From NCBI GenBank assembly GCA_019873685.1, contig JAIOAT010000014.1, positions 41,515-75,809 of the forward strand: a stretch of 34,295 nt of DNA, written 5' to 3'. The stretch is from Chloroflexota bacterium (lineage in GTDB: Bacteria; Chloroflexota; Anaerolineae; Aggregatilineales; Ch27). This document shows, piece by piece, positions 6,794 through 30,969 of this stretch (position 1 is the first letter of the stretch; each line of letters opens with the position of its first letter). The notes beneath the pieces were generated by a model. That model saw only the letters and a program-made list of their open reading frames with translations, searched no databases and was not told the DNA's origin. Made by a program: the position numbers and the translations under genes.

Positions 6794-7321
6794 TCAGTCG
6801 GTCATGCTGACCATGTACACCGGGTTATCGCCATTCTGCCGTAGCTCGCTGAACTTGCGGCGCAGCGCCTCCTGGACGTGCAGCGGGACCATGGTGCTCA
6901 CTTCCCCGCCCAGCGAGGCGATCTCGCGCACGGTGCTGGAGCTTAGGTGGACATACGCCTCCCCGGCGATAAGATTGACGATCTCCAGGCTGGGCGCCAG
7001 ACGGCGGTTGGCCAGCGCCATACGGAACTCCAGCTCAAAATCGGAGAACACGCGCAGGCCACGGATGATTGCGATAGCACCCACTTTCTGCGCATAGTCT
7101 ACAGTCAATCCGCTATAAATCGCAAATCGGATGTTGGGGATGTGGCGGAGCGACTCTTCGACCAGTTTGAGCCGTTCCTCCGCGCTGAACAGCAGGCGCT
7201 TATTCGGTCGATCGTAGACCGCCACGATCAGCTCGTCAAACAGGCGGGATGCCCGCATGGCGATGTCGATGTGGCCGTAATGAATCGGATCAAAGGAAGC
7301 AGGATACAACGCCCGGCGCAT
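6794..7321 (-). CDS. coaD: Phosphopantetheine adenylyltransferase
   Basis: CoaD converts 4'-phosphopantetheine and ATP to dephospho-CoA and pyrophosphate, the penultimate step of CoA synthesis, in the cytosol. The 175-residue chain starts ALYPASFDPIHYGHIDIA, with the nucleotidyltransferase HxGH-type motif at residues 14-17. It continues with the family block IIRGLRVFSDFELEFRMALANRRLAP and the SSSTVREIASLGG segment near the C-terminus. The usual Gly before Ser-Phe-Asp-Pro is Ala here, a mild change. The ATG at 7321 has GAGGAGGG about 6 nt upstream. It lies 24 nt after the recG stop and is probably translated from the same mRNA. rsmD, a frequent neighbour of coaD, is absent. Confidence 0.97.
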   Translation of the reverse strand: MRRALYPASFDPIHYGHIDIAMRASRLFDELIVAVYDRPNKRLLFSAEERLKLVEESLRHIPNIRFAIYSGLTVDYAQKVGAIAIIRGLRVFSDFELEFRMALANRRLAPSLEIVNLIAGEAYVHLSSSTVREIASLGGEVSTMVPLHVQEALRRKFSELRQNGDNPVYMVSMTD

Positions 7322-7345
7322 AGATGCCCTCCTCAGGCTGGCGGC

Positions 7346-10117
7346 CTAGCTCAGGTCTGTCGTTGCCGCCTGCCACATGGCAATGCGCTCCGCCAGCAGA
7401 CGATGCTCAGGCAGCGACAGGTCAGGGTCTTCCGCATGGAGTGTCCGCGCTTCGCGTTGCGCCAGAGCGACCAGCTCCGGGCTGAAGCTCTCGGCAAAGC
7501 GGAAGCGCAGCGCGTAGCCGCTCTGGCGCGTGCCCAGGAGGTCTCCTGCGCCACGCAGACGGTAGTCAATCTCGGCCAACTCGAAGCCATCGTTCGTGCG
7601 CACCATCGCCTCCAGGCGCGCCCGCGCATTGTCTCCGTCGGCGTCGCTGATCAGCAGGCAGTACGATGGATGCGGACCGCGTCCCACCCGTCCCCGGAAC
7701 TGATGAAGCTGGGCCAGACCAAAGCGGTTGGCGCCTTCGATCAGGATCACGCTGGCGTTGGGCACATCAATGCCCACTTCCACCACTGCCGTGCTGACCA
7801 GAATATCCAGTTCACCCGCCTGGAAGCGCGCCATGACGGCATCCTTGTCATCGGCGCTCATCCGCCCGTGGAGCAGGCCTAGCCGCCGTCGTGGGAAGAT
7901 CTCGCGGCTCAGGCGCTCGTACTCGTCCACGGCGGCGCGGGTTTCATCTTCGGCGTCTTCCGCCTCGACGAGCGGGTAGATGATGAACGCCTGGCGGCCT
8001 CTATTGATCTGCTGATCGATGAAGCTGTAGGCGCGTTCCCGTTCCAGTTCCGTGAGCAGGTGAGTTTCCACCGGCGTGCGGCCCGGCGGCAATTCATCGA
8101 TCACCGTCAGGTCAAGATCAGCGTGGATCGTCAGGGCCAGGGTGCGCGGGATCGGGGTAGCCGTCATCACCAGAAGATGAGGGTTGACCCCCTTGCCGCG
8201 CAGCAGGCCCCGCTGCGCCACGCCAAAACGATGCTGCTCATCAATGATTGCCAGTGTCAGGTTGGCGAAGTCCACATCAGGCTGGATCAGGGCGTGCGTG
8301 CCGATCACGATGGAGACTGTTCCCGCCGCCAGCCGCGCCAAGGTGTCCGCCCGCTCGGCGGGGGGCGTTGCGCCGGTCAACAGCCGCACGGCGATCTCGC
8401 GTTCCGGCACCAGGGCAGCCAGGGCGCGGGTAATGGCGCGGAAATGCTGCTCGGCCAGGATACCCGTTGGCGCCATCAGCGCTGCCTGCCCGCCGTTCTC
8501 CACCGCTATCAGCATGGCCAGGACGGCCACAATCGTCTTGCCTGATCCCACATCACCCTGCAACAGGCGGTTCATGGGCACGGCGCGGGCCATATCCGCC
8601 CGGATCTCGGCCACGGCGCGTTCCTGCGCGACGGTCAGCGGGAAGGGCAGGTTAGCCAGCACGCCTGCCAGCCAGCTATCGGTTACCGGCTGGGGCACGC
8701 CCGGTTCCTTTTGCCAGGCCCGCCGCCGCGCCAGCATGGCGGTCTGCAGCAGGAAAAGCTCGTCGAAGGCCAACCGCTCGCGGGCGTAGCGCAGATAGTC
8801 CCAGTGCTCCGGGAAGTGCAGCTGCCGCAGCGCCCAGCCCAGGTCGACCAGTTCAGCGCGGTCGAGCACGCTCTCCGGCAGGTAATCGGGTAGCCGTGGC
8901 GCCCAGTAATCCACCGTGCTCTTCATGATCCGGCGCAGGGTGCGGGCGGGTAGTCCTTTGGTCAGTGGATACACCGGGACGATCGCCCGCGTGTGCAGGT
9001 TATCGAATTCCAGCAACTCCCATTCCGGGTTGTTCATGGACGGCTTGCCCAGGTACTGTTCGACCCGGCCACTGACGACAACCTGTTCGCCGCGCTTGAG
9101 CTGGTTCTGCAAATACGGCTGTCCGAAGAAGAAGACGGTCAGGGTAGCTGTGCCATCATCCAGCACGATCTGCAGGGATTGCCGACCGCTGCGCCCGGTG
9201 AAGACCCGACTGTTGACCACCGTGCCGATCAGCGTTGCCACCTCGCCAGGGCGGGCGCGGTTGATCGGCAGCAGGCGTGTGTAATCGTCATGGCGACGCG
9301 GGACATGGTAAAGCAAATCGCCCACAGTGCGGATGCCAAGCTGGGCCAGCTTTTCAGCGTTCTTTTCCCCTACACCTTCGATGACGGTCACCGACGCTTC
9401 CAGCCCGCGCAACAGGTCAAGCTCCTCGGCCAGTTCGCGCGGGCGGCGCGGTCTGCGGCGCGGCTTGGGGCGCGATGGCTCAACCGGCTGGACACCCTCT
9501 TCCATCCCAGCTTCAGCGAGCGCCACCGGTTCCTCCGGTCCCACCGCCTCCGGCGACAAGGTCTCTGGCGCCACTGCTTCCGGCGGCGCTGGTTCGGCCT
9601 CAACCTGTCCGGTGCTCACGGGGGGCACTTCTTCGGCAGGGGAAGGCTCCTGCGCTGGATGGGGCGCTGGCGTCCCTTCACGGCGCGGTGCGGCCTGGGC
9701 TGGCTGTGGGGGCGACGGCCGGGGGCGTTCACGCCGGGGTTCGGCCATCCGCCTCTGCTGCGCGGGTGGACGCGGCGCAGGTCTGGCGGGTGGCTGTTCC
9801 CGGGCCGGCGCTGGCGCAGCAGCAGGTCCCGGCGGCGCTGGCGTACCGGCCGATGGGATGCGCCCGGTGATGCGACCGATCATGTACTTGACCGCCTCAT
9901 GGCGTTCATCGTGGTTGGTGATCTGCTCGTAGCGGCGCATCAGACCGGCCAGTTCATCGACCAGCGCGTGGTGCTCAGGCCGCTTGGCCTGGGCGTGCGC
10001 GTCACTCTGCCAGCGGTCGGTGAACGCGCCCAGGCCGCCGATCACGGCAGTGTTCTTGTACCCCTGCTCGCGTTCGAGCTTGAGGATTTTCATCAGGGTT
10101 TCAAGTGCAGAAGGCAT
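7346..10117 (-). CDS. recG: ATP-dependent DNA helicase RecG with a long N-terminal extension
   Basis: RecG remodels stalled replication forks and recombination intermediates. The 923-residue chain is about 230 residues longer than E. coli RecG. Residues 1-105 form an extra helical segment (KILKLEREQGYKNTAVIGGL and onward), and about 105-235 is a Pro/Ala/Glu-rich linker. The RecG core then starts with a helix-hairpin-helix-like VIEGVGEKNAEKLAQLGI, followed by the OB/wedge domain. Walker A (GDVGSGKT) is at 521-528 and the DEQH box at 626-629. MTATPIPRT, STAVVEVGIDVPNA and the QFRGRVGRG motif VI follow, with the C-terminal GTRQSG block. The ATG at 10117 has only a weak AGG ribosome signal, consistent with coupling to fakB 15 nt upstream. 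The start could also be a few codons later. Confidence 0.96.
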   Translation of the reverse strand: MPSALETLMKILKLEREQGYKNTAVIGGLGAFTDRWQSDAHAQAKRPEHHALVDELAGLMRRYEQITNHDERHEAVKYMIGRITGRIPSAGTPAPPGPAAAPAPAREQPPARPAPRPPAQQRRMAEPRRERPRPSPPQPAQAAPRREGTPAPHPAQEPSPAEEVPPVSTGQVEAEPAPPEAVAPETLSPEAVGPEEPVALAEAGMEEGVQPVEPSRPKPRRRPRRPRELAEELDLLRGLEASVTVIEGVGEKNAEKLAQLGIRTVGDLLYHVPRRHDDYTRLLPINRARPGEVATLIGTVVNSRVFTGRSGRQSLQIVLDDGTATLTVFFFGQPYLQNQLKRGEQVVVSGRVEQYLGKPSMNNPEWELLEFDNLHTRAIVPVYPLTKGLPARTLRRIMKSTVDYWAPRLPDYLPESVLDRAELVDLGWALRQLHFPEHWDYLRYARERLAFDELFLLQTAMLARRRAWQKEPGVPQPVTDSWLAGVLANLPFPLTVAQERAVAEIRADMARAVPMNRLLQGDVGSGKTIVAVLAMLIAVENGGQAALMAPTGILAEQHFRAITRALAALVPEREIAVRLLTGATPPAERADTLARLAAGTVSIVIGTHALIQPDVDFANLTLAIIDEQHRFGVAQRGLLRGKGVNPHLLVMTATPIPRTLALTIHADLDLTVIDELPPGRTPVETHLLTELERERAYSFIDQQINRGRQAFIIYPLVEAEDAEDETRAAVDEYERLSREIFPRRRLGLLHGRMSADDKDAVMARFQAGELDILVSTAVVEVGIDVPNASVILIEGANRFGLAQLHQFRGRVGRGPHPSYCLLISDADGDNARARLEAMVRTNDGFELAEIDYRLRGAGDLLGTRQSGYALRFRFAESFSPELVALAQREARTLHAEDPDLSLPEHRLLAERIAMWQAATTDLS

Positions 10118-23337: not shown

Positions 23338-25026
23338 ATGAGCAACGTGAGTAAGAAGAAGGGACTATCGCGGCGTGAATTCCTGAAGAGTTCCGGCGTA
23401 GTTGCCGCTGCAACGAGCTCTGCCGCCATTCTGGGCGCCTGCAGCCCCCAGGTCGCACCGACCGCTACACCGACCACCGAGTCTGCAGTACCAACGACTG
23501 AGGCGGCCTCGTCGGGGATGAATTGCACCTCTGCCTGGGCTAACCCCCCGGCGCCAGTTGCCGAGTCGGATATCGTGGCAACGATCGATACCGAGGTGGT
23601 TGTGGTGGGCGCCGGGTTCGCCGGTCTGGCAGCCGCGCTGAGCGCCGCTGAACATGGTGCGAAGGTGGTTGTGATCGAGAAGGGCACTACCTGGAGCGGT
23701 CGCGGCGGCGGTATTGGCGTGTTTGAGTCGCGCGTGATGCGCGAGCTAGGCATTCAATTGAATAAGGAAGAGGTTGCCCGCGAATGGATCGAAATGTGCG
23801 GCAACCGTTCCAAGGAGTCGCTTGTCTGGTTGTTCCTGAACAACAGCGGCGAGGCCATGGACTGGTGGCTGGACAAGGCGCAAGCCTACAACCTCACCCC
23901 GATGATCTGGGGGGGCAACTATAAGGGGTCAAACTACACCGAGTATCCCTGCTACCACATGTTCTTCGGCGGCATTATGGAGCAGGGGCGCGATCCCGGT
24001 TCTAATCTCGCTTGGGTGACCTACGAGGAAGCGGTAAAAGCAGGCGTTGATTTCTATTTTGAGACTCCCGGCGAACAGCTGGTCAAGGAGGGCGATCGCG
24101 TTGTCGGCGTGATCGCCCGGAGCAAGGATGGCTACAAGCGCTTCAACGCCTCGAAGGGTGTCATCCTGGCTACGGGTGATATCGGCGGCAATCCGGAGAT
24201 GTGCAAGGACCTGGCTCCCCTGGCATTGCGGGCCAACAAATCTGAGTATTACCCAATCGGCCAGAATACTGGCGATGGTCACCGCATGGGGCTGTGGGCT
24301 GGTGGCGCCTTCCAGGATACGCCTTTCCCGACCATGATTCACCCGCAAGCTTTTTCGTGGTACCAGTTTTGCTTCCTGTTCGTGAACAAGCGCGGTGAGC
24401 GGTTCATGAACGAGGATACCTGGGTTCAGGCGCGTTCCCTGCAAACGATGATGCAGCCGGAAGTACCGTGGGCTTACGCGATCTTCGATTCTAAGTGGCC
24501 TGAATACGTACCGCAGACTCTTCCCTATGGTGGCGGTATGTTCTGGGATAACTGGCGCGCTTATGGCCAGGAATGGACGCCAGACATGACCCAGGCAACC
24601 ATCGACGAGTACATCGAAAAGGGTGAATGGGGCTGGAAGGCGGATACGCTGGAGGAGCTGGCTGAAAAGATTGAGGTACCGGTCGATACCTTTGTGAAAA
24701 CTGTCGCTCGGCTGAACGAGCTGGTTGAGGCCGGCCAGGATGTCGACTTCGGTCGGCGCAAGGAACTACTCTTCCCCATCAAGGATCCGCCTTTCTATGC
24801 TCTCAAGTTCGGCGGTGCGCTGCTGACCGTTGTCGGTGGGCTGAGTGTCGACACCAAGCTGCGTGTTCTGGACGCGAATCAAAACCCGGTGCCAGGCCTG
24901 TATGCGGTTGGCAACGTCTCTGGCGACCTGTATGGTACAGACTATCCCATCCAGATTCCCGGCAACAGCCATGGCCGGTGCCTGACCTGGGGGTATCTCG
25001 TCGGCAAGGCAATCAATGAGGCCTGA
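23338..25026 (+). CDS. Tat-exported lipoprotein flavoprotein, fumarate reductase/FAD_binding_2 family (copy 1)
   Basis: The 562-residue protein has a twin-arginine signal (LSRREFLK, R12-R13), a hydrophobic stretch and a lipobox ILGAC with Cys35, then a Thr/Pro/Ala linker, so it is likely a folded, FAD-loaded lipoprotein on the outer face of the membrane. The FAD domain starts with VVVVGAGFAGLAAALSAAEHGAKVVVIEKG, has the ILATGDIGGN and NTGDGHRMGLWAGGA blocks and ends with GLYAVGNVSGDLYG and PGNSHGRCLTWGYLVGKAI. The C-terminal substrate region lacks the Arg-x-Gly-Gly-Asn pattern expected of fumarate reductases, so fumarate is unlikely. Such proteins reduce varied acceptors (urocanate, steroids, cardiac glycosides) using electrons from a cytochrome. 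AGGAGA lies 11 nt before the ATG. The multiheme cytochrome follows. Confidence 0.9.
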   Translation: MSNVSKKKGLSRREFLKSSGVVAAATSSAAILGACSPQVAPTATPTTESAVPTTEAASSGMNCTSAWANPPAPVAESDIVATIDTEVVVVGAGFAGLAAALSAAEHGAKVVVIEKGTTWSGRGGGIGVFESRVMRELGIQLNKEEVAREWIEMCGNRSKESLVWLFLNNSGEAMDWWLDKAQAYNLTPMIWGGNYKGSNYTEYPCYHMFFGGIMEQGRDPGSNLAWVTYEEAVKAGVDFYFETPGEQLVKEGDRVVGVIARSKDGYKRFNASKGVILATGDIGGNPEMCKDLAPLALRANKSEYYPIGQNTGDGHRMGLWAGGAFQDTPFPTMIHPQAFSWYQFCFLFVNKRGERFMNEDTWVQARSLQTMMQPEVPWAYAIFDSKWPEYVPQTLPYGGGMFWDNWRAYGQEWTPDMTQATIDEYIEKGEWGWKADTLEELAEKIEVPVDTFVKTVARLNELVEAGQDVDFGRRKELLFPIKDPPFYALKFGGALLTVVGGLSVDTKLRVLDANQNPVPGLYAVGNVSGDLYGTDYPIQIPGNSHGRCLTWGYLVGKAINEA

Positions 25027-25037
25027 GAGATCATGGT

Positions 25038-25075
25038 GCCTTCAGGCGTCGGACGGTGCTCCGACGCCTGAAGGC
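25038..25075 (+). repeat. Perfect 16-bp inverted repeat between flavoprotein 1 and the cytochrome
   Basis: GCCTTCAGGCGTCGGA (25038-25053) and TCCGACGCCTGAAGGC (25060-25075) enclose a 6-nt loop. There is no T-tract, so complete termination is unlikely. It may stabilise the upstream message or reduce read-through to set the flavoprotein:cytochrome ratio. Confidence 0.7.
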
Positions 25076-25181
25076 TCAAGCCTGGCTACGGGAACTGGAG
25101 TAGAGCCACGAGGCTACTTCTTGTGGCAGGTTGGGCAGCAATACTCGGCGTTTCGTGCCGGGATAGAGCGGGAAGAATTCG

Positions 25182-25802
25182 ATGTTCAAACGAAAATCCG
25201 GGACATCTGTGACTGCGGAGCTAACAGATCGGTCGAGGCGGTGGAACAAGTTCACTATTAGCGTTGCTATCAACGTGTTGCTTCTCTTGATCATTGCGGG
25301 CCTGGTGAGCGCTTCCGCCATCATTCACCAGACCAACACGAACCCGAACTTCTGCGCAGGTTGTCACGTCATGCGACCGAATGTTGAGTCCTATCTGACC
25401 AGCAACCATCTTGATCATGTCCATGCTGAAGCTGGCGTGATGTGTAAGGATTGCCATTCTGACTATAGCCTGCTGGATGAGATCCGTGCAGGGCTGAACT
25501 TCCTCACCGGAAACTATGTTGTCAATGCCGATGGCACGCTGCCCAAGCGTGATTTCGAGGATGATATTTGCACCCAGTGTCACGGTGGGATGGAGCGCGT
25601 AGCCAGGTCAACCGACTTTCTTGCTCGCAACCCCCACAACAGTGGCATGGGAACCTTCACCTGCGATACCTGTCATGTGTCGCATGGGGCACAGATCGAT
25701 TATTGCAGCCAATGTCATAGCAATGGCGGCCAGCGCATGATCGAGGACAACAGCCCGCGCCGGGAACTGATTGGTATGCCGGAAGCAGCAAAGTATCAGT
25801 AG
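25182..25802 (+). CDS. Membrane-anchored pentaheme cytochrome c, NapC/NirT/NrfH type
   Basis: The 206-residue protein has a basic cytosolic N-terminus, one membrane helix (about residues 24-48) and an extracytoplasmic domain with five CxxCH heme sites: 58-62, 88-92, 130-134, 161-165 and 175-179. The first reads CAGCHVM, with a Met placed as in NrfH heme 1. Family members take electrons from menaquinol and pass them to a soluble or anchored reductase; typical NapC/NrfH have four hemes, so the fifth is notable. It lies between two Tat lipoprotein flavoproteins, so it probably feeds one or both. This layout resembles the cytochrome-flavoprotein pair Cgr1-Cgr2 of Eggerthella (established knowledge, no search run). 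No heme lyase gene is in the window. Confidence 0.93.
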   Translation: MFKRKSGTSVTAELTDRSRRWNKFTISVAINVLLLLIIAGLVSASAIIHQTNTNPNFCAGCHVMRPNVESYLTSNHLDHVHAEAGVMCKDCHSDYSLLDEIRAGLNFLTGNYVVNADGTLPKRDFEDDICTQCHGGMERVARSTDFLARNPHNSGMGTFTCDTCHVSHGAQIDYCSQCHSNGGQRMIEDNSPRRELIGMPEAAKYQ

Positions 25803-25821
25803 CTGTCTACAGGTGATTTTC

Positions 25822-25875
25822 CCGACTCTCTGCCGGGGTGTGGTGGTTTGCGACTGGGTTCTGCCGGAGAGTCGG
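25822..25875 (+). repeat. Inverted repeat between the cytochrome and flavoprotein 2
   Basis: CCGACTCTC (25822-25830) and GAGAGTCGG (25867-25875) are perfect complements around a 36-nt loop, with no following T-tract. As with the repeat before the cytochrome, it could tune expression between operon members. Confidence 0.45.
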
Positions 25876-25958
25876 AGATGCGACCACTGACAGGCGCCCA
25901 GCCTGATATGACCGGAGCTTGCAGTGATGTGCCTGTTGCAGCAAGTGAGGAGTGAGCC

Positions 25959-27686
25959 ATGAGCAAGGAAAACGAAAGAAAAGGGCTATCCAGGCGCGAT
26001 TTTCTGGCGGGTGCAGGGGCCACGCTTGGTGGTAGTATCTTGGCCGGTTGTGCGCCGCAGATCGTTCCGACAGCAACCCCGGAGCCCACACCCGAGCCGG
26101 TAGCTGCGCCAGAGGTGATGACCGCCGAACTCGCAGCCAAGAAGTGGAGCTTTGAAATCCCCCCCGATCCAATTCCCGACAGCGAGATTGCTAACACGGT
26201 GGAAACGGAAATTGTGATCGTAGGCGCCGGGGTATCGGGGTTGGTGTGCGCCAACTCCGCCGCCGACCATGGTGCCAAAGTCGTGCTGATCTCAGCCAGT
26301 TCTGCCCCAGTGTATCGAGGCGGATCGTTTCATGCGCCTCGTAGCAAGGCTATGGAGAGGCTGGGGATCGAACCTTACGATGTCACCACGTTCTTCAGAC
26401 GCGAGTTATCTTCGGCTTCCTTCAATGTCGATCAGGAAAAGTGGTACAAGTTCTACAACAACGCCGAAGAGGCTATGAACTGGCTGATCGACATCATGGA
26501 AGCCAAGGGTTACGAGACGGTTCTGGAGCATGGTAATGTCGAACCTGGCTTCGGTCCGATGCATACCCCTCCCGGCTCGCACTCCTGGATTTCGGAGGAT
26601 ATGCGCATGGCCGGCTTGAGCGCGGGCTTTGTAGTGAATACCCTGGCCGAGCGAGCGCAACAGGCCGGTGTGCAGATCATCTACAAGATGGTGGCCAAGC
26701 AATTGGTCCGGGAAGATAACAACACTGGGCGCGTCACGGCCGTCATTGCCCAGGGTGAAGATGGCACGTACACCAAGTATGTTGGCAGTAAGGCCATTGT
26801 TCTGGCTACTGGCGATTTTTCGGCTGACCGCGAAATGATGGCCAAATACTGCCCGTGGGCTATCCCGCTGCTTCACGATCGAGGTGACCAGGGGTACGAC
26901 AACAACTTCAAGTTCGGTGGCCTGTACAAGGGTGATGGCCACAAGATGGGCCTGTGGGTTGGTGCGGCCTGGCAGCGCACCTTCCCCAATCCGCCAATGA
27001 TCATGGGCAAGTGGGTCGGCGCCAACCAGCCCTATGGAACGCACCGTGGTCTGCTCGTTAATAAGAAAGGCGTCCGTTTTACCAACGAGGACATCAACGG
27101 GCCGTTCGAAGGCATTGCGCAGATGCGCCAGCCTGAAATGAAAGCCTTTGCCATCTGGGACGCTACATATGCGGAAAAGGCGGCCCCGTGGTACACCTTC
27201 GGTATGATCGAAGGCTCCGATCCGATTCCGCCTGAGGCAATCGTTGAGCGTTGGGAAGCTGCGGTCGCTGATGGTTCGATGGTCAAGGCCGACACACTCG
27301 ACGAAGTGATCGAGAAGCTCGGTCTGCCGCTGGAGGCGACCAAGGCCACTATCGAGCGCTATAACCAGTTCTGCGAGCAGGGCGTGGATGAGGACTTCCA
27401 CAAGGGCGCCAAGCATCTGGTGGCTATCAAGGAAGCGCCTTTCTATGGCGGAATGTTAGACGTGCCGGACTTTTTGACCGTGATGGGCGGTCTGCGCACC
27501 AATGCCAATATGCAGGTTTGCGACGAGAATGACGAGCCTATCCCGGGTCTGTTCAATCTCGGCGTGATGGTTGGCGATTATTACGCCAATATCTACAACT
27601 ACCTGATCGCTGGGAATAACCTGGGCGCGTGCTGCCTGACCTTCGGTTACCTTATCGGTCGGGCCATTGCGCAGGGGACCGTCTAA
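25959..27686 (+). CDS. Tat-exported lipoprotein flavoprotein, FAD_binding_2 family (copy 2)
   Basis: The 575-residue protein has the twin-arginine motif LSRRDFLAG (R12-R13) and the lipobox ILAGC with Cys31, then a short Pro/Thr/Glu linker. The FAD domain begins EIVIVGAGVSGLVCANSAADHGAKVVLIS and has IVLATGDFSADREMM and YKGDGHKMGLWVGAAW. It ends with GLFNLGVMVGDYYANIYNYLIAGNNLGACCLTFGYLIGRAI. It is clearly related to copy 1 but divergent; the C-terminal active-site region reads NNLGACCLTFG where copy 1 has NSHGRCLTWG, so the two probably act on different substrates. GAGGAG lies 8 nt before the ATG. It is the last gene of the respiratory cluster, followed by a strong terminator. The substrate is unknown. 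Confidence 0.9.
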   Translation: MSKENERKGLSRRDFLAGAGATLGGSILAGCAPQIVPTATPEPTPEPVAAPEVMTAELAAKKWSFEIPPDPIPDSEIANTVETEIVIVGAGVSGLVCANSAADHGAKVVLISASSAPVYRGGSFHAPRSKAMERLGIEPYDVTTFFRRELSSASFNVDQEKWYKFYNNAEEAMNWLIDIMEAKGYETVLEHGNVEPGFGPMHTPPGSHSWISEDMRMAGLSAGFVVNTLAERAQQAGVQIIYKMVAKQLVREDNNTGRVTAVIAQGEDGTYTKYVGSKAIVLATGDFSADREMMAKYCPWAIPLLHDRGDQGYDNNFKFGGLYKGDGHKMGLWVGAAWQRTFPNPPMIMGKWVGANQPYGTHRGLLVNKKGVRFTNEDINGPFEGIAQMRQPEMKAFAIWDATYAEKAAPWYTFGMIEGSDPIPPEAIVERWEAAVADGSMVKADTLDEVIEKLGLPLEATKATIERYNQFCEQGVDEDFHKGAKHLVAIKEAPFYGGMLDVPDFLTVMGGLRTNANMQVCDENDEPIPGLFNLGVMVGDYYANIYNYLIAGNNLGACCLTFGYLIGRAIAQGTV

Positions 27687-27729: not shown

Positions 27730-27775
27730 ACTGCCCCGATGTCTCCCCCCCTCATCGGGGCAGTCACTTTTCCCT
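27730..27775 (+). terminator. Intrinsic terminator of the flavoprotein-cytochrome cluster
   Basis: ACTGCCCCGATG (27730-27741) and CATCGGGGCAGT (27753-27764) make a perfect 12-bp stem with an 11-nt loop, followed by CACTTTT. Confidence 0.9.
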
Positions 27776-27836: not shown

Positions 27837-27889
27837 AAATGCCATCGACGATGTTGCGTTTTGAGCAGCTCTGTGTTAAGCTGAGAAAC

Positions 27890-28015
27890 ATGACCACGAC
27901 GATGACTCTGCATCCCCTGCCTGTTTGCGCCATGACCGCCGGCTGCATGTGTATGTGTATGCCGTTCTTCAAGCGCGCCTGGCGGCCAGGCTGCAGGGCG
28001 ATGCAAGGGGGCTAA
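27890..28015 (+). CDS. Cys/Met-rich leader peptide, 41 residues
   Basis: The frame starts MTTTMTLHPLPV and contains five Cys (C13, C19, C21, C23, C35) and seven Met. The core CMCMCM is at residues 19-24, codons 27944-27961. It ends at TAA 28013-28015 inside a GC-rich hairpin. GAG lies 6 nt before the ATG, a weak ribosome site. No protein family is recognised. The stop is 100 nt before a JAMM protease gene, and an intrinsic terminator lies between. This fits a ribosome-stalling peptide for transcription attenuation: scarce Cys-tRNA (or Met-tRNA) stalls the ribosome on the CMCMCM run. Cysteine-rich leader peptides that control sulfur genes are known in actinobacteria, but this one is not familiar to me. 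It is an inference from codon content and position. Confidence 0.62.
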   Translation: MTTTMTLHPLPVCAMTAGCMCMCMPFFKRAWRPGCRAMQGG

Positions 28016-28081
28016 CCCCCGGCGTCGCTGGCTATCTGCAAGTGATTTCAGCCGACCAGGCCCTGGTCGGCTTTTCGTTTT
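27977..28081 (+). promoter_or_regulatory. Candidate transcription attenuator: alternative hairpins and intrinsic terminator
   Basis: Segment 1 GCCTGG (27977-27982) pairs with segment 2 CCAGGC (27986-27991). A second hairpin pairs 28000-28004 with 28022-28026 and GGGGG (28007-28011) with CCCCC (28016-28020), overlapping the leader stop. The terminator is AGCCGACCAG (28050-28059) with CTGGTCGGCT (28063-28072), a 3-nt loop and TTTTCGTTTT. Its left arm and loop contain CCAGGC (28056-28061), identical to segment 2, so segment 1 can pair with the terminator arm instead and block termination. The terminator stands 34 nt before the JAMM gene, inside the apparent 5' leader, which is hard to explain without regulation. 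Confidence 0.6.
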
Positions 28082-28114: not shown

Positions 28115-28567
28115 ATGGAGATTGTCCTGCCCCGGCCAGCTGAGGAACAGGCGCTGGCGCATCTGCAGGCGGCGTACCCGAACGAGGGCGGCGGCTTTCT
28201 GCTCGGCCATCAACAGGATGGGCGGGTGATCGTTCTGGACGTCATACCGGTCGCCAATGTCTTTAGCGCTGAGGAGCAGTATCACCGCTATGCCATGCGG
28301 CCTGAGGACTGGATGGCGCTCGAGGATCAGGCGGAGGCGCGCGGCCTGACCCTGGTTGGTTACTTCCACAGCCATCCTGATTCGCCCGCTGTGCCTTCCG
28401 ATTATGACCGGCTCCATGCGCTGCCCAATTTCGTCTATCTGATCGTGCAGGTGGATCAGGGGGCAGTCCAAGCGGCGCGGGCCTGGATACTGGTCGAGGA
28501 TCGCAGCCGCTTTGAGGAACAGACGCTTGTTCGCTCCGATGCAGGCGGCTCTTGGCAGATTCACTGA
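28115..28567 (+). CDS. JAMM/MPN+ metalloprotease of a sulfur-carrier system (Mec-like)
   Basis: The 150-residue protein is a zinc isopeptidase-type protease. The JAMM motif is complete: E24 (in NEGGGFLLG), H85, H87, S95 and D98 in HSHPDSPAVPSDYD. Bacterial homologues act on ThiS/MoaD-like carriers: M. tuberculosis Mec+ releases cysteine from CysO-Cys, and Pseudomonas QbsD and Wolinella HcyD trim the carrier C-terminus to expose Gly-Gly. The next gene, 14 nt downstream, encodes a carrier with residues after Gly-Gly, so trimming is a likely job. The ATG at 28115 has AAAGGAG upstream; an in-frame start at 28082 adds a non-homologous tail. It is the first structural gene after the attenuator. Confidence 0.92.
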   Translation: MEIVLPRPAEEQALAHLQAAYPNEGGGFLLGHQQDGRVIVLDVIPVANVFSAEEQYHRYAMRPEDWMALEDQAEARGLTLVGYFHSHPDSPAVPSDYDRLHALPNFVYLIVQVDQGAVQAARAWILVEDRSRFEEQTLVRSDAGGSWQIH

Positions 28568-28581
28568 AGGAGGATTTCATC

Positions 28582-28860
28582 ATGGCTTACATCAAGATTC
28601 CCACTCCGCTGCGTCAGTACACCGGCAACCAGGCAGAAGTTGCCATCCGCGGGGCGACGGTCGATGAGGCTTTGCGCGATCTGGTCGCCCGTTACCCCGC
28701 GCTGGCACCGCACCTGTATGAGGGAGACGATCTGCGCAGCTTTGTGAACATCTTCCTGGGGGATGAAGATATCCGCTTCCTGCAGGACTTAGCCACGCCG
28801 CTCAGCGAAGATGCCCGCCTGCGGATCATCCCGGCGATCGCTGGCGGGATGTCATTCTGA
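28582..28860 (+). CDS. CysO/ThiS/MoaD-like sulfur-carrier protein with Gly-Gly-Met-Ser-Phe end
   Basis: The 92-residue beta-grasp protein resembles M. tuberculosis CysO as I recall it: IPTPLRQYTGNQAEV near the start, FVNIFLGDEDIRF in the middle and LRIIPAIAGG near the end. Carriers are activated as adenylates at the terminal Gly and converted to thiocarboxylates. Here Gly-Gly is followed by Met-Ser-Phe before the stop (GGC GGG ATG TCA TTC TGA), so the protein must be cut before activation, most simply by the adjacent JAMM protease. AAGGAGGAT lies 7 nt before the ATG. The E1-like MoeB enzyme is three genes downstream. No cysM-type synthase is in the window, so the sulfur acceptor is unknown. 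Confidence 0.92.
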   Translation: MAYIKIPTPLRQYTGNQAEVAIRGATVDEALRDLVARYPALAPHLYEGDDLRSFVNIFLGDEDIRFLQDLATPLSEDARLRIIPAIAGGMSF

Positions 28861-28888
28861 GGACAGGCCCGGGAGAAGGAGGATGGCT

Positions 28889-29347
28889 ATGAATGCCGAA
28901 CGCCGTGTGGATCACAGTGCGCTGCGCACCAATCAGGCGTTTATCATCGCCCTGCTGGCGCTGGCTTTCCTGCTGAATACACCTGCGCTGGTGGCTTTGG
29001 TGGCGGCGGTAATGCTCATCGGGACGATCTGGCCGGGGGCTGGCCTGTTCAAGCGCGTGTACCAGCATCTGCTGCGACCAGCAGGTCTGGTTCGGCCTGA
29101 CGTGCGCCCGGATAATCCAGAGCCACACCGCTTTGCCCAGGGGCTGGGCGGCGTGTTCACGGCGCTGGGGGCGCTGGCCCTGGCGCTGGGGGCGTCTATC
29201 CCCGGCTGGGCGCTGACGGGGCTGGTGATTGGCCTGGCGGCGCTGAATCTGTTTGCCGGATGGTGCGCTGGTTGTACGCTTTACTACTGGCTGGCCCGGC
29301 TGGGAGTGCCCGGCTTTGACCGCCAGCCGGTGGAGGCCAGGCGATGA
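28889..29347 (+). CDS. DUF4395 membrane protein with CxxC
   Basis: The 152-residue protein has about four membrane segments: two around residues 18-50 and two in the Ala/Leu/Gly-rich stretch from about 85-130. A conserved-looking FAGWCAGCTLYYWLARLGVPGF with a CxxC pair follows at the end of the last segment. DUF4395 proteins are often encoded next to thioredoxin-like proteins; their function is unknown. ATG 28889 is chosen because AAGGAGG lies 6 nt upstream, whereas ATG 28883 abuts it. It overlaps the thioredoxin gene by 4 nt (ATGA). A role in moving reducing power or sulfur across the membrane is inference. Confidence 0.85.
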   Translation: MNAERRVDHSALRTNQAFIIALLALAFLLNTPALVALVAAVMLIGTIWPGAGLFKRVYQHLLRPAGLVRPDVRPDNPEPHRFAQGLGGVFTALGALALALGASIPGWALTGLVIGLAALNLFAGWCAGCTLYYWLARLGVPGFDRQPVEARR

Positions 29348-29751
29348 TCGAGCGCCTGCTGGTTCTGGTGATCTTCTTTGCGTTGCTGCTTGCAGCGGTT
29401 GTGCTCTATCGCCGCTGGCAGATGCGCCATGTTACCGCGCTGGCACCAGTCGATCCGGTGCTGGTGGACTGGCAGCCCGGCGTGCCGACCATCGTCTACT
29501 TCAGTTCGCCCCAGTGCGCACCGTGCCAGTTGCAGCAGGAGCCGGCGCTACGTGTACTGCAGGCTGAGCTGGGCGCTGGAGTCCGGATCGTGCCGGTGGA
29601 CGCGCTGGCGCAACCAGAAGCTGCCCGGCGCTGGGGTGTGCTGACCGTCCCAACGACTTTCGTGCTCGATCGGCGTGGCCGCCCGCAGGAAGTCAACTAC
29701 GGTGTGGCCGGTGTCGAAAAGCTTAAGCAGCAGTTGCTGCGGGCAGGTTAG
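29344..29751 (+). CDS. Membrane-anchored thioredoxin-like protein
   Basis: The 135-residue protein has an N-terminal membrane helix (about 4-22) followed by a basic RRWQMR segment, then a thioredoxin fold. The active site is C58-A-P-C61 in YFSSPQCAPCQLQQ, and the cis-Pro loop is TVPTTFVLD. Basic residues right after the helix suggest the thioredoxin domain may face the cytosol, but topology is uncertain. GGAGG precedes the ATG by 7 nt, and the start overlaps the DUF4395 stop. It may reduce persulfides or disulfides formed during sulfur transfer or exchange thiols with the DUF4395 CxxC. Confidence 0.9.
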   Translation: MIERLLVLVIFFALLLAAVVLYRRWQMRHVTALAPVDPVLVDWQPGVPTIVYFSSPQCAPCQLQQEPALRVLQAELGAGVRIVPVDALAQPEAARRWGVLTVPTTFVLDRRGRPQEVNYGVAGVEKLKQQLLRAG

Positions 29752-29778: not shown

Positions 29779-30969
29779 ATGGTAGTTATTCCTGAACGCA
29801 TTGATCCGGCCTCAGTGGTCCTGAGCCATGATGAGATCCGGCGCTACAGCCGCCACCTGATCCTGCCGGAAGTAGGTGTGGAAGGGCAAAAACGGCTGAA
29901 GGCCGCCAGTGTGCTGCTGATCGGGACGGGCGGTCTGGGCAGCCCGCTGGCGTTATATCTTGCCGCCGCCGGGGTGGGACGGATCGGCCTGGTGGATTAC
30001 GACGTGGTTGACGAGAGCAACCTGCAGCGCCAGGTCATTCATGGCACCAGGGATGTCGGGCGGTCCAAGCTCGATTCAGCGGCGGAGACGATCGCCGATC
30101 TCAACCCGTTTGTGGCCATCGATCGCTATAACGTTCCGCTGAGCAGCGCCAATGCGCTGGACATCCTGTCCGGCTATGACGTGATCGTCGATGGCACTGA
30201 CAACTTCCCGACTCGCTATCTGGTCAACGACGCCTGCGTGCTGCTGGGCAAGCCCAATGTCTATGGCAGTGTCTTCCGCTTTGAAGGCCAGGTCAGTGTG
30301 TTTTACGCCAGGGAAGGCCCCTGCTATCGCTGCCTGTTTCCTGCCCCGCCGCCGCCCGGCCTGGTGCCCAGTTGCGCCGATGGCGGGGTGCTGGGTGTGC
30401 TGCCGGGTACGATCGGGACTCTGCAGGCCACCGAAGCGATCAAGCTGATCACCGGAATCGGCCAGCCGCTGATTGGCCGCTTGCTGCTGTATGACGCCCT
30501 GGAGATGAGTTTCGAGACGATCAAGCTGCGCAAGAACCCGGCCTGCCCGATCTGCGGGCTGAACCCGACGGTCACCGAACTGATCGACTACGAAGCTTTC
30601 TGTGGCGTTCCGGCCCACGACCGCAGCACATTCAGCAGCGAGGGGGCGCCTGTGCGGGCGATCACGGTGGACGAGGTCAAGGCCCGCTTGGATGCGGGTG
30701 ATAACCTGCTGATCCTGGATGTGCGTGAACCGCAGGAGTGGGCGATCAGCGCCATCCCCGGTACGTTGCGCATCCCCAAAGGGGAAGTCCTCGCCCGGTT
30801 GGATGAGCTACCAACCGACCACGACATTGTCGTCCATTGCCGGACGGGAATCCGTTCCGCGGATGTCATCCGGGTGCTGCAGGAGCGCGGTTACACGCGG
30901 CTGTACAACATGGCCGGCGGGATAAACGCCTGGGCGCGGCGAATTGACCCTACATTGCCGGTGTACTGA
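29779..30969 (+). CDS. MoeB/ThiF-type E1 adenylyltransferase fused to rhodanese
   Basis: The 396-residue enzyme adenylates the C-terminal Gly of the carrier and transfers sulfur to it. The E1 domain (about 15-270) has the nucleotide loop GTGGLG at 49-54, VDYDVVDESNLQRQ, the DGTDNFPTRY block, a candidate catalytic Cys C199 in PSCADGGVLGVLPG, and zinc ligands C182/C185 and C256/C259. The rhodanese domain (about 290-392) has the persulfide Cys C354 in HCRTGIRS. This architecture matches MoeZ/MOCS3-type proteins that thiocarboxylate CysO or MoaD. AAGGGTGG lies just before the ATG. It is the last gene of the operon; gene symbols moeB or moeZ would be defensible but the carrier specificity is inferred from the neighbour. 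Confidence 0.93.
   Translation: MVVIPERIDPASVVLSHDEIRRYSRHLILPEVGVEGQKRLKAASVLLIGTGGLGSPLALYLAAAGVGRIGLVDYDVVDESNLQRQVIHGTRDVGRSKLDSAAETIADLNPFVAIDRYNVPLSSANALDILSGYDVIVDGTDNFPTRYLVNDACVLLGKPNVYGSVFRFEGQVSVFYAREGPCYRCLFPAPPPPGLVPSCADGGVLGVLPGTIGTLQATEAIKLITGIGQPLIGRLLLYDALEMSFETIKLRKNPACPICGLNPTVTELIDYEAFCGVPAHDRSTFSSEGAPVRAITVDEVKARLDAGDNLLILDVREPQEWAISAIPGTLRIPKGEVLARLDELPTDHDIVVHCRTGIRSADVIRVLQERGYTRLYNMAGGINAWARRIDPTLPVY

Follow-up and report, generated by a model that had tools for sequence, protein, structure and literature searches.

The question raised by this locus is what a short reading frame rich in Cys codons, followed by hairpins and an intrinsic terminator, does immediately upstream from a sulfur-carrier operon. 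A preliminary description of the window (by which we mean the whole stretch of 34,295 nt analysed) had proposed that the frame encodes a leader peptide with Cys and Met codons and belongs to an attenuator. From the comparison of related loci and from RNA folding models, we consider it very probable that transcription of the operon is attenuated by a ribosome on an apparently leaderless leader peptide rich in Cys and Met codons, the operon being turned on at low levels of charged Cys-tRNA and perhaps also of Met-tRNA.

Leader region and operon in the window

The features considered are the following, all on the + strand.

27730..27764, +: 12-bp perfect hairpin (arms 27730-27741 and 27753-27764) with a short T tract, 3' of the upstream flavoprotein gene
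27853..27881, +: candidate promoter TTGCGT-17 nt-TAAGCT with the extended -10 box TGTTAAGCT; TGNTANNNT 6-8 nt before the ATG is recurrent in most relatives
27890..28015, +: leader-peptide ORF MTTTMTLHPLPVCAMTAGCMCMCMPFFKRAWRPGCRAMQGG, 41 codons with 5 Cys, putatively leaderless
27944..27961, +: putative regulatory codon run CMCMCM (TGC ATG TGT ATG TGT ATG)
27977..27986, +: antiterminator left strand GCCTGGCGGC, pairing with 28051-28061 over 10 bp with A28055 bulged
27977..27991, +: competing local hairpin GCCTGG-CGG-CCAGGC, forming when the antiterminator does not
27998..28029, +: stop-codon hairpin, standing in the antiterminator loop; its GGGGGCTAACCCCC (28007-28020) has the leader stop in the loop
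28050..28079, +: intrinsic terminator AGCCGACCAG-GCC-CTGGTCGGCT (28050-28072) followed by TTTTCGTTTT: 10-bp stem, loop GCC, T-rich tail
28115..28567, +: JAMM/Prok-JAB metalloprotease (PF14464, E=1e-23), first structural gene, with AGGAG before its ATG
28582..28860, +: ThiS/MoaD-like sulfur carrier ending ...AIAGGMSF (PF02597, scanned from 28552; SAMP1-like below the cut-off)
28883..29347, +: DUF4395 protein (PF14340, E=2e-32)
29344..29751, +: thioredoxin-like protein (domain search)
29779..30969, +: ThiF-rhodanese (MoeZ-like) sulfur-carrier activating enzyme (domain search)

The frame with its five Cys codons and CMCMCM core, the hairpin over its stop codon and the 10-bp terminator with a T tract had all been noted in the preliminary description, and we recovered each of them at the same positions, with about 34 nt between the terminator tail and the JAMM ATG (28115). 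What had been missed is the probable leaderless start. Precisely, no Shine-Dalgarno sequence precedes the leader ATG and the extended -10 box ends about 7 nt 5' of it; the transcript would therefore be leaderless, as in mycobacteria, and from the position of the -10 box its start would lie at or beside the ATG at 27890. The congeneric locus L010 keeps only three of the five Cys codons, those in CMCMCM, the remaining two being Gly and Ser, and for this reason we considered CMCMCM as the functional part of the leader. The folding z of the leader region is -3.5. No riboswitch or other Rfam class (T-box, SAM etc.) was matched at gathering score, the whole window giving one tRNA only.

The JAMM protein, the ThiS-like carrier and the MoeZ-like activator are all encoded in the window, whose operon contains neither metX nor metY and has no adjacent cysM; cysM adjoins such genes only in other families. 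The carrier of the window ends with GG and a short tail (GGMSF, 28846-28860); in many relatives other tails of 1-11 residues follow GG, and some carriers end at GG; from these variable tails, JAMM may trim the carrier before its activation. Upstream from the leader, the region 23338-27686 encodes two FAD_binding_2 flavoproteins, the first with a TAT signal, separated by a NapC/cytochrome c3-type multihaem protein (25182-25802), and looks like a fumarate-reductase-like respiratory module. Transcription from the second flavoprotein gene, the one upstream from the leader, is probably ended by the hairpin at 27730-27764.

Leader, terminator and operon layout among relatives

We gathered JAMM homologues in 61 genomes and in 80 named contigs, the labels of which were nearly all Anaerolineae or Chloroflexi/Chloroflexota, for a set of 94 distinct sequences. 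Most of the collected loci have a short ORF with a Cys-rich core 5' of JAMM. For the strict scan, carried out on 91 loci, we considered as a leader any frame of 8-60 codons whose ATG was 6-8 nt past TGNTANNNT. A density of 3 or more Cys per 10 codons was reached in 60 of the 91 loci and one of 2 or more in 71, compared with 0/91 on the reverse strand; dinucleotide shuffles gave 0.1 out of 91 for at least 2 Cys and none for at least 3. Leaders beyond the strict scan were picked partly by Cys content, and the statistical claim is hence the one made by the strict scan with its shuffles. Cys represents 13% of leader residues and 0.3% of JAMM residues in 18 thinned representatives.

The Cys run is nearly universal in the leaders, the peptide being otherwise variable, with little shared in divergent relatives. 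The core itself is of different types (CCCTC, CTCTC, CLCCC, MCMCM), neither the spacing of the Cys nor the flanking residues being conserved, and some relatives have consecutive Cys where the window alternates Cys with Met. A terminator-like hairpin stands before the first gene in 78 of 80 leader-bearing loci (2.5 in shuffles); where the leader was mapped (68 loci), this hairpin starts 19-67 nt past the leader stop, and 17-70 nt separate its end from JAMM. The leader is lacking in some relatives, e.g. L020 and L026. JAMM operons of Anaerolineae type were also found in records titled Pleurocapsa minor, Proteobacteria and Bacteroidetes (L091, L075 and L102), which are probably mislabelled or mis-binned MAGs; L091 and L025 are one contig, and L025 is assigned to the order of the window.

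The leader keeps to the front of the operon and not to JAMM. L034, L035 and L038, which belong to one family, have a cysM-JAMM-ThiS-DUF4395-Trx-MoeZ operon with the leader (MLTCCMCMCENQGR and similar) ahead of cysM; in such cysM-first operons the terminator, too, stands ahead of the first gene. In the cysM-JAMM operons of another Anaerolineae family (f9) no leader was visible. Many genomes have metY and metX (O-acetylhomoserine sulfhydrylase and homoserine acetyltransferase) between JAMM and ThiS. In G055 and G059 the JAMM operon has no metXY within the DNA read, and a metY located elsewhere is preceded by a leader and a terminator of its own (L163, L164), so that some genomes have more than one such leader. 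In L163 and L164 the leader is of leaderless CMC type and, on the reverse strand, stands about 260 nt 5' of metY. The gene sets described here are similar, by homology, to the cysteine route CysO-CysM-Mec-MoeZ and the thiocarboxylate methionine route. In L044, a gene whose product, by eye, looks like a sulfite-oxidase/molybdopterin-type oxidoreductase (6816-7922) lies between thioredoxin and MoeZ.

In the genome of the window, a scan of one promoter spacing gave no second Cys-run leader among 35 TGNTANNNT-N7-ATG sites, and no such leader was found at its cysK/cysM-type (PF00291) and metB-like genes. Two CMCM-type DNA matches in this genome, L119 and L122, were discarded as they lie inside longer genes (L119 looks like CTP synthase).

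Antiterminator pairing and position of the ribosome

The left arm of the terminator, and often its loop as well, is matched by a complementary leader segment situated about 20-27 nt 3' of the last Cys codon. Since simple shuffles of the leader segment are weakly informative (own-arm pairing against mononucleotide shuffles gave a modest mean z of -1.0 overall and of -1.5 in the representatives), we permuted the terminator arms among species, a pairing test that assumes no structure. In 35 representatives, pairing with the own arm reached -14.9 kcal/mol, compared with -12.2 (sd 0.44) for permuted arms (P ≤ 5e-5). Decoy segments, subjected to the same permutation, had no preference for the own arm either 5' of the Cys run (P 0.27) or further downstream (P 0.74). 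The antiterminator is thus supported by covariation, as measured on the pairing with the own partner. The preliminary description had left to comparison both the conservation of a short Cys-enriched frame and the covariation of the stems, and relatives bear out the two of them.

In order to model the position of the ribosome, nascent RNA was folded up to the terminator loop with a ribosome mask at either the Cys codons or the stop codon. The mean antiterminator probability was 0.60 when the mask covered the Cys codons and dropped to 0.22 when it was moved to the stop codon, a decrease that occurred in 65 of 68 loci; a control mask of equal size just before the terminator gave 0.61. Three loci, L010, L014 and L025, showed hardly any such loss of antiterminator pairing.

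In the window, GCCTGG (27977-27982) is complementary to CCAGGC at both 27986-27991 and 28056-28061, and the choice between these two partners, already pointed out in the preliminary description, is the same that the folding simulation yields. The antiterminator had a probability of 0.80 with a stalled ribosome, compared with 0.12 once the ribosome had reached the stop codon, in which case the local hairpin 27977-27991 took its place. Constrained folding with a ribosome at the stop codon disrupted the stop-codon hairpin 27998-28029. The footprint of that ribosome lies just 3' of the antiterminator strand, hence in these models the effect passes through the stop-codon hairpin and not through direct masking; located within the antiterminator loop, this hairpin apparently serves as a position sensor. 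When the complete transcript of the window was folded, the terminator was favoured at equilibrium in both states (0.975 and 0.976, stalled or not), from which it would follow that any switch must be kinetic, as it is in other attenuators.

We infer translation of the leader, stalling and induction from these results, as well as the function of the operon in metabolism, along the following lines. With plentiful Cys-tRNA, the ribosome would proceed to the stop codon and its footprint would block the stop-codon hairpin; 27977-27991 would be left to fold as the local hairpin, the terminator 28050-28072 would form and transcription would end ahead of JAMM. With scarce Cys-tRNA, and possibly Met-tRNA also, the ribosome would stall in CMCMCM and leave 27977-27986 free to capture the emerging left arm of the terminator (28051-28061), with read-through into JAMM-ThiS-DUF4395-Trx-MoeZ as the predicted outcome.

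The same features could be read in other ways. The closest functional precedent, the mycobacterial polycysteine leader, is described as translation attenuation (PMC13236596), and JAMM has its own AGGAG, hence stalling might act by making the ribosome-binding site of that gene accessible, with a secondary role for the terminator-like hairpin. We consider this unlikely: an intrinsic terminator, strong and followed by a T tract, separates leader and gene in nearly all the leader-bearing loci, cysM-first operons included, its arm is the partner in the covarying pairing, and the ribosome-binding site of JAMM lies beyond the terminator tail. The nascent peptide might instead be the sensor, its Cys and Met side chains binding copper or another metal, or reacting with oxidants, and so arresting the ribosome. 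CMCMCM is indeed similar to soft-metal ligands, with Cys and Met enriched together; however, it is the Cys content alone that is conserved, and not spacing or flanks, and the downstream genes have sulfur-carrier, cysM or metXY functions and not metal handling, which makes such a sensor very unlikely. Finally, the frame is long for a leader, with its 41 codons, and might encode a small protein with a function of its own, the terminator after it being an ordinary one and no switching taking place. We find this scarcely credible, given that in divergent relatives the peptide is not conserved beyond the Cys run, that the leader segment pairs preferentially with its own terminator arm and that the operon would be silenced by a terminator of full efficiency.

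Predicted sensing of cysteine alone or with methionine, and known systems

The preliminary description had also suggested that the alternating Cys-Met codons let the leader sense both sulfur amino acids. This suggestion is less well supported than the sensing of cysteine: Met is enriched in the core and tracks metX/metY, but phylogeny confounds the link, and the window itself is a mixed case, with a Met-rich core and no metXY in the operon. Precisely, Met represents 14% of core residues (Cys run ± 2), compared with 4% outside the core and 2.8% in JAMM. The mean core Met was 3.6 in the 32 loci with metX/metY in the operon and 0.87 in the 45 loci without (Mann-Whitney p=3e-10), core Cys being equal in the two groups (3.66 and 3.58). 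PGLS on a single-gene tree, which is poorly resolved, gave a metX/metY effect of +1.4 core Met (p=0.001); among its controls, whole-leader Met had p=0.049, Cys had no effect and Thr had p=0.012. In view of these controls, we considered the effect as suggestive and not proven, and counting of independent pairs on the tree gave one supported pair. The tracking of metX/metY by Met codons is in this sense suggestive support for dual sensing. In one clade (L090, L097, L102 and L111) the leaders are unusually Met-rich, e.g. MCMSCMPMTMAMCC and SCMPMMMGMCR, all of them before metY, and they represent the best natural test of Met sensing.

Two readings are therefore weighed. According to one, this is a two-amino-acid attenuator with a codon content that depends on the product of the operon: Met/Cys alternation and sensing of both amino acids in leaders ahead of metX/metY operons, and Cys codons alone in one large clade, the operons of which are of the JAMM-ThiS-MoeZ-only type. 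Leaders of this design, placed ahead of cysM, JAMM or metY, would then form a leader-peptide-based sulfur regulon in Anaerolineae; to this reading we would give slightly less than an even chance. According to the other, Cys-tRNA alone is sensed and the core Met codons are incidental, either spacers or alternative start codons; in our judgement its chance is about the same. The latter agrees with Cys runs that are nearly universal, whereas about 28 leaders have a Met-free core; these are mostly of one clade, so that the link between Met and metX/metY may be ancestry, and both the Thr control and the operon of the window point the same way. It has more difficulty with the Met enrichment in the core, with the dependence of core Met, and not of Cys, on metX/metY, with the PGLS effect and with the leaders of metY genes away from the JAMM operon, which show CMC/MM runs as well. 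The Cys/Met codon variation over about 80 leaders is a ready test of whether one leader can report two amino acids, and it may also show the sulfur-amino-acid route of each genome.

Mycobacterial polycysteine leaders are reportedly cysteine-responsive. Cys-rich leader peptides, without terminators, were predicted in mycobacteria (PMC1262725), and polycysteine leaderless short ORFs were first proposed there in PMC4633059, where they were seen as leaderless small ORFs. There, a leaderless short ORF with clustered Cys codons lies directly 5' of sulfur/cysteine operons, with a proposed sensing of cysteine; the leaders described here, which would likewise be leaderless, are similar in codon content and placement. 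The Chloroflexota leaders belong to another phylum and, unlike the mycobacterial ones, have a terminator and a covarying antiterminator, which points to transcription attenuation; moreover, many of them, that of the window included, alternate Cys with Met in place of the consecutive Cys runs of mycobacteria. In the one paper collection searched, no earlier report of a Cys-leader attenuator in Chloroflexota was found. Cysteine-codon attenuation would thus be extended to this phylum, in a transcription-terminating form and with an apparently leaderless peptide.

The genes downstream recall two known pathways, that of M. tuberculosis to cysteine (CysO-CysM-Mec-MoeZ; PMC3227635) and that of Wolinella to methionine by way of a protein thiocarboxylate (as far as it is cited in PMC5764234 and PMC6225789). 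The likeness consists of JAMM, a ThiS-like carrier and a MoeZ-like activator, with cysM or metY/metX adjacent in relatives; unlike both pathways, the operon of the window has no neighbouring cysM or metXY. No description of Cys-leader regulation of either pathway was found in the literature examined, and the leader would be regulatory evidence that the Chloroflexota JAMM/ThiS/MoeZ operons serve cysteine and methionine synthesis.

As to the mechanism, the uORFC-8-2 motif before cysS in Rhodobacterales is a predicted terminator-type Cys attenuator (PMC8632094), with which the leader of the window shares predicted ribosome-mediated attenuation at Cys codons and an intrinsic terminator. The motif has two tandem Cys codons before a cysteinyl-tRNA synthetase gene in Alphaproteobacteria, with no Met codons described and no sulfur-carrier or metXY operon behind it, whereas in the window the first gene is JAMM and not cysS, and the Cys codons alternate with Met. 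The trp/ilv attenuators (e.g. mycobacterial ilvB1, PMC13236596) have, like this leader, regulatory codons, a stop codon and mutually exclusive antiterminator and terminator; they differ from it in the amino acid sensed, in that the Chloroflexota leader would be leaderless and in that its stop-codon hairpin is placed within the antiterminator loop.
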